Assembly (NCBI GenBank): GCA_021299375.1
Contig: JAJTGR010000017.1
Location: 1-64,000 of the forward strand
Reading direction: 5' to 3'
DNA: 64,000 nt
Source of the DNA: Gemmatimonadota bacterium
GTDB lineage: Bacteria > Gemmatimonadota > Gemmatimonadetes > Gemmatimonadales > Gemmatimonadaceae
Part shown: positions 24,749 to 59,053 of the stretch, piece after piece
How positions within the stretch are numbered: position 1 is the stretch's first letter
How the letters are laid out: each line of letters begins with the position of its first letter
Translations under genes and position numbers: made by a program
The notes under the pieces: generated by a model
What the model saw: the letters and a program-made list of their open reading frames with translations, nothing else
Told to the model about the DNA's origin: nothing
The model's database searches: none

Positions 24749-25504
24749 ATGATCAGCCTGGCTGGCAAGAACGCCCTCGTGACCGGCGGCGCACGCGGCA
24801 TCGGAGCCGCCTGCGCCCGGATCCTCGCCCGGGCGGGTGCCAACGTCGGCATCGCGTATCGCTCGCGCGACACGGAGGCTCAGGCTGTGCTCGACGACTG
24901 CCTTGCGATGGGACGGTCGGCGTTCGCCTTCAAGGGGGACCTTGCGACTCGTGAGGGCCATGACACCTTCGTGCACGAGGCGGTCGTCCGGTTCGGTGGC
25001 GTCGATATCTTCGTCGGCAACTCGGGCATCTGGCCACCGACGCCCGTCGATGTGGGCGAACTCGACGACGCCCGGTGGCGCCACACCATGCAGACCAACC
25101 TCGATGGCATGTTCTACGGGGCGCGTGCGGCCATCCGCCAGATGCCGCATGGCGGGCGCCTCATCTTCATTTCCAGTACGGCAGGGCAGCGTGGCGAGGC
25201 GGGGCATGCCGACTATGCGGCGAGCAAGGGCGCGATGATCTCGTTCGTGAAGTCGCTCGCCGTCGAGCTCGGGCCACGCGACATCACCGTGAACAGCGTC
25301 GCCCCGGGATGGGTGGACACCGAGGCGGTCGAACGTCCCTTTGCCGACGACGGGCGGGCCCGCATCGAACGAGCGATTCCGCTCGGTCGGGTGGCCGCGC
25401 CGGAGGACATCGCCGGTCCCGTGCTGTTTCTGGCCAGTTCGCTCGCGCGGCACGTCACCGGAGAGATTCTGAACGTGAATGGCGGGAGTGTGCTCTGCGG
25501 CTGA
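24749..25504 (+). CDS. Short-chain dehydrogenase/reductase (FabG-like)
   Basis: A 251-residue classical SDR. The NAD(P)-binding TGGARGIG is at 12-19, the structural NSG(I) at about 91-94, and the catalytic Ser (about 142-143), Tyr 156 and Lys 160 are in ISSTAG...YAASKGA. The C-terminus ends in the common NVNGGSVLCG. The sequence resembles FabG-type 3-oxoacyl reductases, but the substrate cannot be named, and its place after gmhA could mean a sugar or envelope substrate. The ATG starts one base after the gmhA stop. Confidence 0.9.
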   Translation: MISLAGKNALVTGGARGIGAACARILARAGANVGIAYRSRDTEAQAVLDDCLAMGRSAFAFKGDLATREGHDTFVHEAVVRFGGVDIFVGNSGIWPPTPVDVGELDDARWRHTMQTNLDGMFYGARAAIRQMPHGGRLIFISSTAGQRGEAGHADYAASKGAMISFVKSLAVELGPRDITVNSVAPGWVDTEAVERPFADDGRARIERAIPLGRVAAPEDIAGPVLFLASSLARHVTGEILNVNGGSVLCG

Positions 25505-25551
25505 CCCCGGCGTCCGCGGCGGCGCTCTGCCCCCCGGGGCCGGTCATCGAG

Positions 25552-26799
25552 GTGGCGCGTACGCTCATCGATGCCGGCCATGAGACGTGGTGTGTCGGTG
25601 GGGCCGTGCGCGATGCACTGCTCGGCCTCGCTCATCTCGATTGGGACCTCGCCACCGCGGCTACGCCAGCGCAAGTGCGCAGGCTGTTTGCGCGGACCAT
25701 TCCGGTGGGCCTCGAGTTCGGTACCGTGGGTGTTCTCGACCGCGAGGGCCGCATGCACGAGGTCACGACCTTTCGCCGCGACGTGAAGACCGACGGGCGC
25801 CACGCCGTGGTGGAGTTCGGAGCCTCGCTCGACGAGGATCTGGCTCGACGGGATTTCACGATCAACGCGATTGCCTACGATCCCATCGGCAGGCGCCTGC
25901 ACGATCCCTTTGACGGGCAGGGGGATCTGCGTCGCGGTGTCGTGCGCGCCGTGGGCGCGGCTGAAGCTCGCATGCGCGAGGACCGGCTTCGCGCGTTGCG
26001 GGCCATCCGCTTCGCGGCCCGATTCGACTTTGCCATTGAGCAGGCCACGTGGATCGCCATTGTCGACAGCGCGCCGCATCTCACGCGCCTGTCGCCGGAG
26101 CGTGTGAAACAGGAGCTGGAGAAGACGATGGAGCAGGTGCAGGCGCCATCCGTGGCGCTCCGGCGCTGGCGCGACTCGGGCGCGTTTCACGCGCTCATCC
26201 CCGCGTTGTCCGACGTGCCCGATGCACTACTGCGCGCGGTGGATTGCGTGCCGCGTCCAGGGCCCGCCGGTCGTCCGCTGCGCAAGCCGCTCCGGTTCGC
26301 CCTCCTGTTCAGCGGACTCGATGGCCAGCAGGTCGAGCGGCAATTGCGCGCGCTACGCTTCTCGAACCTGGACATCGCCAGCGTCTCGGGACTGGTCGAT
26401 CGGTGGCATCGCCTTGGCTCGGCGCTGACGACGACCCTGCAGTCGGGTACCGTGCCGCCGGACGCCGAGCTGCGCCGGCTCGCGGCGAACGTTGGCCGAC
26501 TGCATGTCGGTGGCTTCCTGCGACTCTGTGCGGCGCGATGGGCGGGCAATGAGGCGGTGCGGCCGGCACAGTGGCGTGCGCTCCACCGGCGCCTGCTTGG
26601 CATCGCGTTCCGGGACCCCATCGCCATCGCGGATCTCGCCATCGATGGTGACGACCTGCGGCAGATCGGGGTGCAACCGGGCCCTGCGTTCGGCCGCATT
26701 CTGCAGGGCCTGCTGGAGCACGTCCTGATCGATCCCACCCGCAACGATCGGGCCATCCTGCTGTCGCAGGCCAGGACGCTTGCCGCGTCGGAGGCATGA
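25552..26799 (+). CDS. cca: CCA-adding enzyme / poly(A) polymerase family nucleotidyltransferase
   Basis: About 415 residues. The class II nucleotidyltransferase head is clear: CVGGAVRDALLG, then the carboxylates in LDWDLAT, the ARTIPVGLEFGTVGV strand, RRDFTINAIAYD and EDRLRALRAIRFAARF with the RNA-binding domain behind. Both tRNA genes in the window lack an encoded CCA, so such an enzyme is needed. The start is uncertain: GTG 25552 is the first conventional one in frame but leaves a short N-terminus; CTG at 25495 or 25501 would overlap or touch the SDR stop and add 17-19 residues. CCA-adding versus polyadenylating activity is not decided here. Confidence 0.9.
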   Translation: MARTLIDAGHETWCVGGAVRDALLGLAHLDWDLATAATPAQVRRLFARTIPVGLEFGTVGVLDREGRMHEVTTFRRDVKTDGRHAVVEFGASLDEDLARRDFTINAIAYDPIGRRLHDPFDGQGDLRRGVVRAVGAAEARMREDRLRALRAIRFAARFDFAIEQATWIAIVDSAPHLTRLSPERVKQELEKTMEQVQAPSVALRRWRDSGAFHALIPALSDVPDALLRAVDCVPRPGPAGRPLRKPLRFALLFSGLDGQQVERQLRALRFSNLDIASVSGLVDRWHRLGSALTTTLQSGTVPPDAELRRLAANVGRLHVGGFLRLCAARWAGNEAVRPAQWRALHRRLLGIAFRDPIAIADLAIDGDDLRQIGVQPGPAFGRILQGLLEHVLIDPTRNDRAILLSQARTLAASEA

Positions 26800-27326: not shown

Positions 27327-28723
27327 GCCGGAACGTGACACCGCCCATGGGACCGTCCCTCTTCTCCGGTGGTAGCGCGGAGCCGCTGGCGGCGAGACTC
27401 CGCCCGGAACGGCTCGAAGACGTCGTGGGCCAGCAGCATCTGCTCGGCGCGGGTCGTCCGCTTGGTGATGCGATCCGCAATGGCACGATCGGCAGTGTGA
27501 TTCTCACCGGGCCGAGTGGCACCGGGAAAACGACCATCGCCAGCCTGATCGGTCGCTACACGCGGCAGGCGGTCGTGGTGCTCAATGCCGTCACCGACGG
27601 CATTCCGCGCCTGCGTGAGATCGTGGCCGAGGCCGAGGAGCGGCTGCGCTACGACGGACGGCGTACCCTGGTGGTGGTCGATGAGATTCATCGCTGGGCC
27701 AAATCGCAGCAGGATGCGCTGCTCCCGCACGTCGAGAGCGGCGTGATCGCGCTCTGCGGTGCGACGACCGAGGTGCCCGCGTTTGCGGTCGTCGGTGCGC
27801 TGCTCTCCCGGTGCCGGGTGTATGCCCTCCGACCGCTCTCCCTTGAGGATATCGTGCAGGTCACGCGACGCGCCCTCGTGGATTCATCGCGAGGTCTGGG
27901 GGCGCGTCACCTTCAGGCGGAGGATGCGACGCTGCACTGGCTGGCCGAACAGTCGGATGGGGATGCGCGCCGTGCCCTCGGTGCCCTTGAGGCCGTGGCG
28001 CTGACCCTCGCTGAAGGTGACCATGTCACCCCCGATCTCCTCGCTGGTGCCCTCGGCGTGCGGGTCGTGAGCTATGACCGTGTCGACATCGATCGGAACG
28101 CCGTACTGTCGGCGTTCCACAAGTCGTGCCGCGGCTCCGACCCCCATGCGGCGCTATACTGGCTGGCGCGGGCCCTACAGGCCGGCGAGGAGGCACAGGT
28201 ATTCCTTCGCCGCCTGGCTGCGATTGCCACGGAGGACGTGGGGCTTGCCGATCCGGCGGCGCTTGGCGTCGTCATGCAGGCCTGGGACGCATACCGGCGC
28301 CTGGGCCCGGCGGAGGGAGAGCGTGCGGTGGCCCAGGCCACCGTCTACTGCGCCACCGCGCCCAAGTCGAATCGCCTGCATCTTGCGTGGGCTGCGGCTC
28401 GGGAGGCTGCTGCCGGAACGCCGTCCGTGCCGGTGCCGGCGCACCTGCTGAACGCCCCGATGCATCGGCGAGCCGATGAGGCGCGGCGGGTGCCGTATGC
28501 CTATCCGCATGACTTTCCCAGTGCCTTCGTCGCCCAGCCCTACCAGCCCGATGAGTTGCAGGGTCGCACCTACTACCACCCCGGGCCATTCGGTGAAGAG
28601 AAGCAGATCGCCAGGCGCCTGACGTGGTGGGCGGAACGAGGCGGACCACCGGTGGATCCGTCGGGTATCACGACGGACAGCCCGCCCAGGCAGGCGATAT
28701 CGACCTCAGGAGACGTACCGTGA
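27323..28723 (+). CDS. rarA: Replication-associated recombination protein RarA (MgsA/WRNIP1 family)
   Basis: A 466-residue AAA+ clamp-loader-like ATPase. It shows the LAARLRPERLEDVVGQQHLLG box, Walker A GPSGTGKTT (about 62-70), Walker B with DEIHRW, sensor 1 (ALCGATTEVP), the arginine finger region (LLSRCRVYALRPL) and the C-terminal tetramerisation part with PYAYPHDFPSAF and EEKQIARRL. RarA acts at stalled replication forks. The start at ATG 27323 (ATGA overlap) is preferred because the extension upstream has no family character. Confidence 0.95.
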   Translation: MSRNVTPPMGPSLFSGGSAEPLAARLRPERLEDVVGQQHLLGAGRPLGDAIRNGTIGSVILTGPSGTGKTTIASLIGRYTRQAVVVLNAVTDGIPRLREIVAEAEERLRYDGRRTLVVVDEIHRWAKSQQDALLPHVESGVIALCGATTEVPAFAVVGALLSRCRVYALRPLSLEDIVQVTRRALVDSSRGLGARHLQAEDATLHWLAEQSDGDARRALGALEAVALTLAEGDHVTPDLLAGALGVRVVSYDRVDIDRNAVLSAFHKSCRGSDPHAALYWLARALQAGEEAQVFLRRLAAIATEDVGLADPAALGVVMQAWDAYRRLGPAEGERAVAQATVYCATAPKSNRLHLAWAAAREAAAGTPSVPVPAHLLNAPMHRRADEARRVPYAYPHDFPSAFVAQPYQPDELQGRTYYHPGPFGEEKQIARRLTWWAERGGPPVDPSGITTDSPPRQAISTSGDVP

Positions 28724-29208
28724 CCGTACCCGTTCGTCGCTGCGTGCTCGCGGCGTGTGTGACTGTTGCCGCGACATTCGCCGTTGGAGGGTGCGCCGCT
28801 CTTGGGCGGGCGACCTTCACCGAACCCGACGTACGCCTCCGCGAGTTCGTTGTCACCGGCCTAGGGCTGACAGGCGGGAGTGTCGACCTCGTGTTGTCGG
28901 TGTACAATCCGAATGGCTACCACCTCGATGCGGTGAAGATGACCTATCGGGTCGATGTGGACTCCATCAAGCTGGGGGAGGGCGAACTGGCTGATCGTTT
29001 TGTCGTCCAGGAGAAGGATTCGTCCCTCGTGCGGCTGCCCGTTCGTTTCACGTATGCGGGCCTGGGGGCGGCAGGGCGGGCGCTCATCACCTCGGGCACG
29101 GTGAACTATCGCGTCCGCGGCGACTTTACGGTGGCTACGCCACTCGGCAGCTTCACTCGGCCCTACGATCGGACCGGGCGCTACTCCTCCGTCACCGGCA
29201 ACCGCTGA
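28720..29208 (+). CDS. LEA14-like (LEA type 2) lipoprotein
   Basis: A 162-residue protein with a short lipoprotein signal (lipobox AVGGC near residues 21-25) followed by a single Ig-like LEA type 2 domain: LTGGSVDLVLSVYNPNGYHLDAVKMTYRVDVD is diagnostic, with the usual ...NYRVRGDFTV strand near the end. Such proteins are predicted to sit on the outer or inner membrane facing the periplasm; their role is mostly linked to stress and is not firmly known. GTG 28720 has a CAGGAGA Shine-Dalgarno and overlaps the rarA stop. hflX follows directly. Confidence 0.85.
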   Translation: MTVPVRRCVLAACVTVAATFAVGGCAALGRATFTEPDVRLREFVVTGLGLTGGSVDLVLSVYNPNGYHLDAVKMTYRVDVDSIKLGEGELADRFVVQEKDSSLVRLPVRFTYAGLGAAGRALITSGTVNYRVRGDFTVATPLGSFTRPYDRTGRYSSVTGNR

Positions 29209-29229
29209 CCATCTCGAAGGACTCAACAC

Positions 29230-30582
29230 ATCAGTCGCGAACCGATCTCCCTCACGCCGCCCGTCGAACGGGCCATCCTCGTCAGTGCCCCGTTCAAGCG
29301 GGGCACGGCCAAGCATTTCGTCGATGAGCATCTGGAGGAACTCGCGCGCCTCGCGGATACCGCGGGCGCCGAGGTCGTCGGAACCTTCACGCAGCAGCTC
29401 GATCGGCCGAACCCGGCCACGTATCTCGGTAGCGGTAAGGTGGAGGAGCTCAAGTTCCGCATCAAGGAACTTGGCGCATCGCTCGTCATCTTCGACGACG
29501 AACTGACGCCCGCGCAGGGCAAGAACATCGAGCAGATCGTCGGTACGCGGGTGATGGACCGGGCGGAGCTGATTCTCGACATCTTCGCCACGCGAGCGCG
29601 ATCGAGCGAGGCGCGCATGCAGGTGGAGTTGGCGCAACTCGAGTACCTCTTGCCGCGCCTCACGCGCATGTGGACGCACCTCGAGAAGATGCGCGGCGGC
29701 ATCGGCATGCGCGGTCCGGGCGAAACGCAGCTCGAGACCGACCGTCGCCTCATCCAGCACCGCATCCGCATCCTCAAGGAGCGCCTGACCGATGTGGAGC
29801 GCGCGCGTGAGATCCAACGGCAACAGCGGCAGTCGCATTTCCGGGTGGCCCTGGTGGGCTACACGAACGCCGGCAAGTCGTCGATCTTGCGCACGATGGC
29901 CGCCGACGGCCTGGTCTTCGTGGAAGATCGCCTGTTCGCCACACTCGATCCGCTCACCCGTGAAGTCGACATCGGTGATGGCTATACGGTGTTGCTCACC
30001 GACACCGTCGGGTTCATCCGCAAGCTGCCGCACCATCTTGTGGCGTCGTTCCGCGCGACCCTGGCCGAGGCCCGGGAAGCCGACCTGCTGCTGCACGTGA
30101 TCGACGCCAGCCACCCCGCATGGGAAGAACATCGCGATGTCGTGGATGGCGTGCTCAACGAGCTCGGGCTCGGCGAGCGTCCGCTCACGTATGTGATGAA
30201 CAAGATGGATGCGCTCCCGGCCACCGAGGCCGAGGCCGTTCGGCAGCGGGTGAAGAACCTGATGCCCACGTCGCTGTTCGTGTCGGCCATCGCACCGGGT
30301 GGGCTCGAGGCGCTGAAGGCGTCGCTGCGGGCGAGTCTGCGTCGGCAGCGGCCGGTGCTGGAGGTGCGGATCCCGGCCGGGAACGGTCGCCTGATCGCCG
30401 AGGTACACCGCGACGGCGAAGTGCTGGACCAGCAGGTCGATGACGATGTGGTCGTGCTGCGGGCCCGGCTCGACGAACGGGCGATCGGCCGTCTGCGTCA
30501 GGCGGGTGTTCGGGTGGTGGTGACGCAGGGCGTCACACGCCCGGAGCGTGCGGCCGCCGCCGTCGCCGTGCCGCTGCCCTGA
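29230..30582 (+). CDS. hflX: GTPase HflX, apparent ATC start codon
   Basis: A 450-residue HflX. The N-terminal domain runs through ERAILVSAPFKRGTAK and YLGSGKVEEL, then GMRGPGETQLETDRR, the coiled segment, Walker A GYTNAGKSS (about 210-218), the TLDPLTR switch, DTVGFI and NKMD. HflX is a ribosome-splitting GTPase active after stress. The conserved N-terminus begins before any ATG, GTG or TTG: after the preceding stop the frame has none until GTG 29440. An ATC at 29230 lies 8 bases after a GAAGGA Shine-Dalgarno (29216-29221) and is taken as the start. A start at 29440 would delete about 70 conserved residues. Confidence 0.93.
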   Translation: MSREPISLTPPVERAILVSAPFKRGTAKHFVDEHLEELARLADTAGAEVVGTFTQQLDRPNPATYLGSGKVEELKFRIKELGASLVIFDDELTPAQGKNIEQIVGTRVMDRAELILDIFATRARSSEARMQVELAQLEYLLPRLTRMWTHLEKMRGGIGMRGPGETQLETDRRLIQHRIRILKERLTDVERAREIQRQQRQSHFRVALVGYTNAGKSSILRTMAADGLVFVEDRLFATLDPLTREVDIGDGYTVLLTDTVGFIRKLPHHLVASFRATLAEAREADLLLHVIDASHPAWEEHRDVVDGVLNELGLGERPLTYVMNKMDALPATEAEAVRQRVKNLMPTSLFVSAIAPGGLEALKASLRASLRRQRPVLEVRIPAGNGRLIAEVHRDGEVLDQQVDDDVVVLRARLDERAIGRLRQAGVRVVVTQGVTRPERAAAAVAVPLP

Positions 30583-30649: not shown

Positions 30650-30723
30650 TGGGCGCGCAGGGACTCGAACCCCGGACCTCTGCTGTGTGAAAGCAGCGCT
30701 CTAACCAGCTGAGCTACGCGCCC
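30650..30723 (-). tRNA. tRNA-Val (CAC anticodon)
   Basis: Read on the - strand it folds as a full cloverleaf: acceptor GGGCGCG/CGCGCCC, D-stem GCTC/GAGC, anticodon stem CTGCT/AGCAG around the loop TTCACAC (anticodon CAC, reading GUG), and T-arm CGGGG-TTCGAGT-CCCTG. The discriminator base is A and no CCA is encoded. It lies downstream of the CAT tRNA on the same strand, and the 18-bp hairpin follows 4 bases later. Confidence 0.95.
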
Positions 30724-30835: not shown

Positions 30836-30909
30836 TGGTCCGGGTGGGACTTGAACCCACGATCCTTCGATTATGAGTCGAGCGCTTTGACCGACTAAGC
30901 TACCGGACC
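30836..30909 (-). tRNA. tRNA with CAT anticodon (Ile2 or elongator Met)
   Basis: A cloverleaf on the - strand: acceptor GGTCCGG/CCGGACC, D-stem GCTT/AAGC, loop CTCATAA (anticodon CAT), T-arm GTGGG-TTCAAGT-CCCAC, discriminator A, no encoded CCA. The 27-43 pair is a C-A mismatch. The first acceptor pair is G-C, so it is not the initiator. C4-G69 and C5-G68 plus the GACTCATAATC arm resemble tRNA-Ile2, whose C34 is changed to lysidine by TilS to read AUA. Elongator Met cannot be excluded. Confidence 0.9.
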
Positions 30910-58534: not shown

Positions 58535-59053
58535 ATTCAGGATTCGACGAAGCGTCCGCCACGGGTGAACCGGCAGATCCGCATCAGTCCGGTACGGGTG
58601 ATCGGTGCCGACGGGAGCCAGTTGGGCATCCTCGAGGTCGACGTGGCCTTGTCGATGGCGCAGGACCTTGGCCTCGATCTCGTGGAAGTGGCGGCGGCGG
58701 CTCGGCCCCCGGTCGTCCGAATCATGGACTACGGGAAGTTCAAGTTCGAACAGGCCAAGCAGGCCCGACTCGCGAAGAAGAAGCAGCACGTGATCCATCT
58801 CAAGGAGGTCAAGTACCGTCCGGGGATCGATGATCACGACTTCGACACGAAGACCCGCCACGCGCGGAAATTCCTCGAAGACGGCAACAAGGTGAAGGTG
58901 ACGCTCATGTTCCGCGGCCGGCAGATCGCCCATCCCGAATTGGGACGCGCGGTGGTTGATCGGGTGTCGCAGGAACTGGCCGACCTGGCCAAGGTCGAGA
59001 GCGCGCCGACGATGGAAGGCAAATCGATGACGATGATCCTCGCGCCGAAGTGA
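58535..59053 (+). CDS. infC: Translation initiation factor IF-3, ATT start codon
   Basis: A 172-residue IF3: N-domain RVNRQIRISPVRVIGADGSQLGILEV, linker with DYGKFKFEQAKQARLAKKKQ, and the C-domain (KEVKYRPGIDDHDFDTKTRHARKFLEDGNKVKVTLMFRGR). The start is ATT at 58535, 8 bases after GGAG (58523-58526); there is no ATG, GTG or TTG at a suitable site. An AUU start is the known, autoregulated infC start in other bacteria: IF3 discriminates against it. rpmI and rplT follow. Confidence 0.95.
   Translation: MQDSTKRPPRVNRQIRISPVRVIGADGSQLGILEVDVALSMAQDLGLDLVEVAAAARPPVVRIMDYGKFKFEQAKQARLAKKKQHVIHLKEVKYRPGIDDHDFDTKTRHARKFLEDGNKVKVTLMFRGRQIAHPELGRAVVDRVSQELADLAKVESAPTMEGKSMTMILAPK

Follow-up and report, generated by a model that had tools for sequence, protein, structure and literature searches.

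Introduction

Idle or stalled 70S ribosomes are split by HflX, and IF3 keeps the subunits apart. Conserved non-canonical start codons are, to our knowledge, few outside infC, the gene for IF3. The infC gene itself starts with ATT in Escherichia coli and with ATC in Streptomyces, whereby IF3 regulates its own synthesis, and AUH starts (AUC, AUU or AUA) are found in infC of unrelated phyla as well (PMC5472188). Another conserved start of a non-canonical kind, GTC, is that of sigR in Streptomyces: overproduction of IF3 lowers SigR, whereas IF3 fidelity mutants have it in excess (PMC5472188). A suppressor strain of E. coli in which both IF1 and IF3 are lowered, and which had other changes besides low IF3, showed increased expression of AUC-GFP but not of the AUG, GUG, UUG or AUA versions (PMC8299109). 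IF3 lets strong pairs pass at the third codon position but excludes weak ones (PMC10158994).

Here, we compare with these systems the putative start of hflX in the window, by which we mean the whole 64,000-nt stretch of Gemmatimonadota DNA that was analysed. Like infC, hflX has an AUH codon that mismatches the initiator tRNA at the third base, is widely conserved, and occurs in the same genomes. Unlike infC, it encodes a ribosome-splitting GTPase, so any control would be that of another gene rather than self-control, and its AUH codon is, as far as compared, not conserved beyond the class (E. coli hflX has TTG). Like sigR, hflX is a gene besides infC whose non-canonical start is conserved and for which repression by IF3 is proposed. 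However, the GTC of sigR departs from ATG at both the first and the third base, is confined to one genus and is experimentally proven, whereas AUH at hflX extends, by sequence comparison, across most of a class. E. coli pcnB, which has an AUU start, is likewise an AUH case outside infC, differing in gene and function. Starts of this kind have already been described for infC and a small number of other genes; the gene and the breadth of conservation appear to be new. A literature search, which most subscription papers lay beyond, found no earlier report of an AUH start in hflX and no relevant papers on Gemmatimonadetes.

Results

The identity of the gene is clear. Its product matches the TIGR03156 equivalog with an E-value of 1.2e-134 and 448.7 bits (cut-off 216.75), the match beginning at residue 14, and the HflX N-terminal, middle and G domains (PF13167, PF16360 and PF01926) score above the Pfam cut-offs, which places it in the HflX GTPase family. 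Among the open reading frames of the window, that of hflX extends from the TGA at 29206 up to a stop whose last base is 30582, and the codons after the TGA are CCA TCT CGA AGG ACT CAA CAC ATC AGT CGC GAA CCG ATC TCC CTC ACG CCG CCC GTC GAA CGG. These bear out what an earlier note on this DNA had claimed: there is no in-frame ATG, GTG, TTG or CTG between the TGA and 29263, and an ATC follows a GAAGGA motif at precisely the spacing given there (Table 1). The first canonical in-frame codon is GTG at 29440, which lies within conserved HflX sequence. The same frame has a second ATC at 29245 and, at 29257, an ACG; it is position 29230, however, that is occupied by ATG, GTG or TTG in some relatives. 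With no in-frame ATG, GTG or TTG available and AUH kept at the start position in the window and its relatives, the putative start of hflX is of the infC type. An Rfam scan found no known structured RNA at the start of hflX. Directly after the gene, two tRNA genes lie on the opposite strand (30650-30723 and 30836-30909, both -).

Table 1. Features of the hflX locus and of infC in the window
Feature	Position	Strand	Evidence and remarks
hflX CDS from the putative ATC start	29230..30582	+	450 aa; TIGR03156 and Pfam HflX domains; frame open after TGA 29206
Putative ATC start codon of hflX	29230..29232	+	ATC in 24/24 congeners; AUH at the homologous position across most of the family and elsewhere in the class; some genera with ATG/GTG/TTG
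GAAGGA, Shine-Dalgarno-like	29216..29221	+	sequence; 8 nt between GAAGGA and ATC
In-frame TGA closing the hflX frame, stop of the upstream gene	29206..29208	+	also ends ORF 28624-29208
infC (IF3)	58535..59050	+	ATT start at 58535; TIGR00168, E 1.9e-68; same window as hflX

A search for HflX over 179 genomes of the family returned full or near-full matches in most of them. The relatives that carry a name are Gemmatimonas and Gemmatimonadaceae. Within the genus (Gemmatimonas), ATC aligns with the start in every one of the 24 readable species, the window species included; the HflX proteins of the other 23 are 77-86% identical to that of the window. By comparison, the Ile codon found five codons past the start is ATC in 12 of the same species, ATT in 11 and ATA in one, a difference with a Fisher p of 8e-5 that is a guide only since the species are related. 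The third base of the start codon thus appears, from this alignment, to be constrained as a nucleotide and not as part of an amino acid codon. The DNA upstream of hflX is largely unrelated between many congeners except for an AGG-like core, which lies at a similar distance from the start in many relatives whose upstream DNA otherwise differs. In many congeners, there is also an in-frame stop a few codons 5' of the ATC.

Across the family, we scanned 89 loci from 31 genera over the region 25 to 9 codons before the conserved ER anchor. No canonical start was present near the HflX N-terminus in 70 of the 89 loci and 26 of the 31 genera; 38 loci, from 14 genera, have the frame closed by an in-frame stop within 25 codons and are free of canonical codons all the way to the anchor. 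The codon at the exact start position is ATC in 57 loci, ATT in 7, ATA in 4, GTG in 10, ATG in 4, TTG in 3 and ACG in 1, while the three others have an AUH displaced by a codon. Among the 68 AUH loci, 52 are devoid of ATG, GTG and TTG in all frames between 30 nt upstream and +9, and 13 lack a Shine-Dalgarno core recognisable by our scan. ATG, GTG or TTG occupies the exact start position in genera g7, g8, g18, g22 and g29 and in part of g31, which marks this position as the true start. Together with the invariant ATC of the genus, these canonical codons strongly support, at the level of sequence, the earlier note's proposal that hflX begins at ATC. The single ACG belongs to a locus of genus g35 (L082), where an in-frame TAG lies two codons before it; this hflX possibly starts at ACG.

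Beyond the family, families f2, f3, f4, f5, f6 and f9 have AUH at the homologous place or, in some cases, a codon to either side of it, usually preceded by a Shine-Dalgarno-like sequence. In families f7 and f8, the hflX start is mostly canonical or ambiguous. The outgroup class (f10) has ATG there, in some cases with a TTG two codons upstream. In a quick HflX tree of 88 rows, AUH is the state of most of the class, and about seven state changes fall among the scored rows; both their number and their direction are approximate, because we judged 12 rows too ambiguous to score and several of the deep rows have long branches. A conserved AUH start of hflX across most of one bacterial class is thus well supported by comparison of these loci. 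In E. coli K-12 (NC_000913.3, L255 1373), hflX is annotated from TTG, likewise a weak start.

The infC gene of the same organism also has a non-canonical start (Table 1). This ATT is found throughout the genus, and ATT or ATC in nearly all infC loci that were read in the class, including genera whose hflX is canonical. The infC start appears to be CTG in family f2, which is of the same order, and two loci of genus g8 (L313 and L314) have a TTG nearby.

How special hflX is among genes was assessed in two single-contig congeners (G043 and G045), over 800 kb of each, approximately one-sixth of the genome, comprising 455 ortholog pairs that evolve as proteins. Five pairs were flagged because, in both genomes, conserved coding sequence extends further upstream than any canonical start. 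For hflX, this was supported by 39 and 40 windows of the screen. Three other pairs, with two or three windows each, were taken to be overlaps with the gene before them, and the fifth, a 70-residue frame, was judged non-genic. Hence, hflX is the only convincing case among the 455 pairs, in a screen that cannot detect a gene whose true start is soon followed by a canonical codon, which is why it missed infC. By this screen, AUH starts are not general in the lineage. Looser screens gave noise from overlapping frames.

Discussion

We consider it probable that hflX is translated from AUC and that AUH has been kept because IF3 rejects such initiation complexes. In this mechanism, the AUC would be read by the ordinary initiator tRNA (fMet, anticodon CAU) with a mismatch at the third base, and rejection of AUH complexes by IF3 would make the rate of HflX synthesis low. 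Synthesis would rise upon a shortage of IF3 relative to 30S subunits or a relaxation of its discrimination; HflX would in turn split 70S ribosomes that are idle or stalled, giving their subunits back to the pool. Since infC, with its own ATT or ATC start, would answer the same signal, the anti-association and splitting factors would be set together. Such joint control is reasonable given that HflX splits 70S ribosomes and IF3 keeps the subunits apart. AUH has been kept at hflX across most of the class even though one base change would give AUG, a pattern suggesting that the cell holds HflX output down and couples it to the strictness with which the ribosome selects start codons. By analogy with infC and Streptomyces sigR, we infer that control by IF3 would be the likeliest reason for this conservation. 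The link is made plausible by the third-base variation from AUG, by the ATT or ATC of infC in the same genomes, and by the published AUC, AUU and GTC starts that respond to IF3. More tentatively, and perhaps less likely to hold than to fail, IF3 might act through AUH starts on both HflX and its own synthesis across the class, which would amount to feedback on the pool of free subunits. Several genera of the family have ATG, GTG or TTG at hflX and yet ATT or ATC at infC, which means that control of hflX by IF3 is dispensable.

The main rival reading accepts the AUH start as real but holds that it was selected solely as a constant brake on HflX expression, an excess of splitting factor being harmful, with no physiological response to IF3. 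It would explain the conservation of a weak start equally well, and weak starts do occur at hflX elsewhere, as TTG in E. coli and as GTG or TTG in some genera of the family. However, GTG or TTG combined with a poor Shine-Dalgarno sequence would suffice for such a brake, whereas every congener has ATC and the family mostly AUH, the class of codons most rejected by IF3; we therefore regard this reading as rather unlikely. Much less probable still is that translation does not begin at the ATC at all, and results from frameshifting from an upstream start, readthrough of the upstream stop or initiation at another downstream codon. In the window, the upstream gene ends just 21 nt 5' of the ATC, which makes coupling possible there. 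Yet many species have an in-frame stop 1-4 codons ahead of the ATC, the upstream DNA varies between relatives, most AUH loci of the family are free of ATG, GTG and TTG in all frames around the start, canonical codons sit at exactly the start codon in other genera, and none occurs downstream before 29440.

The two remaining explanations concern the lineage and the data. A special initiator tRNA or an altered IF3 could make AUH an ordinary start, and the occurrence of AUH starts at both hflX and infC, two translation genes, in these genomes would fit such unusual machinery. In that case, however, AUH would be expected in many genes, whereas the screen yielded only hflX, and the AUH starts of infC in unrelated phyla (PMC5472188) also speak against a peculiarity of this lineage, so that we give this explanation hardly any weight. 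The earlier note had itself raised the alternative of a base error in the assembly, ATC for ATG, and had proposed that hflX be compared in related genomes. That comparison refutes it: ATC is kept in the independently assembled genomes of 24 species, single-contig ones among them, and AUH in many other genera, leaving a base-calling error with a practically negligible probability. The same conservation rules out chance.

If control by IF3 is true, one start codon would join two ribosome-recycling activities, and hflX would offer a direct test of initiation fidelity as a physiological signal. There is also a consequence for annotation: gene finders limited to ATG, GTG and TTG miss AUH starts, and the N-terminus of HflX may well be annotated wrongly or truncated in the class as a result.

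A separate observation in the window concerns a cca-like tRNA nucleotidyltransferase gene (25495-26799, +), which overlaps the end of the preceding gene and has no ATG, GTG or TTG at its likely start. A CTG at 25501 aligns with the GTG of relatives and is a possible start codon for this gene.
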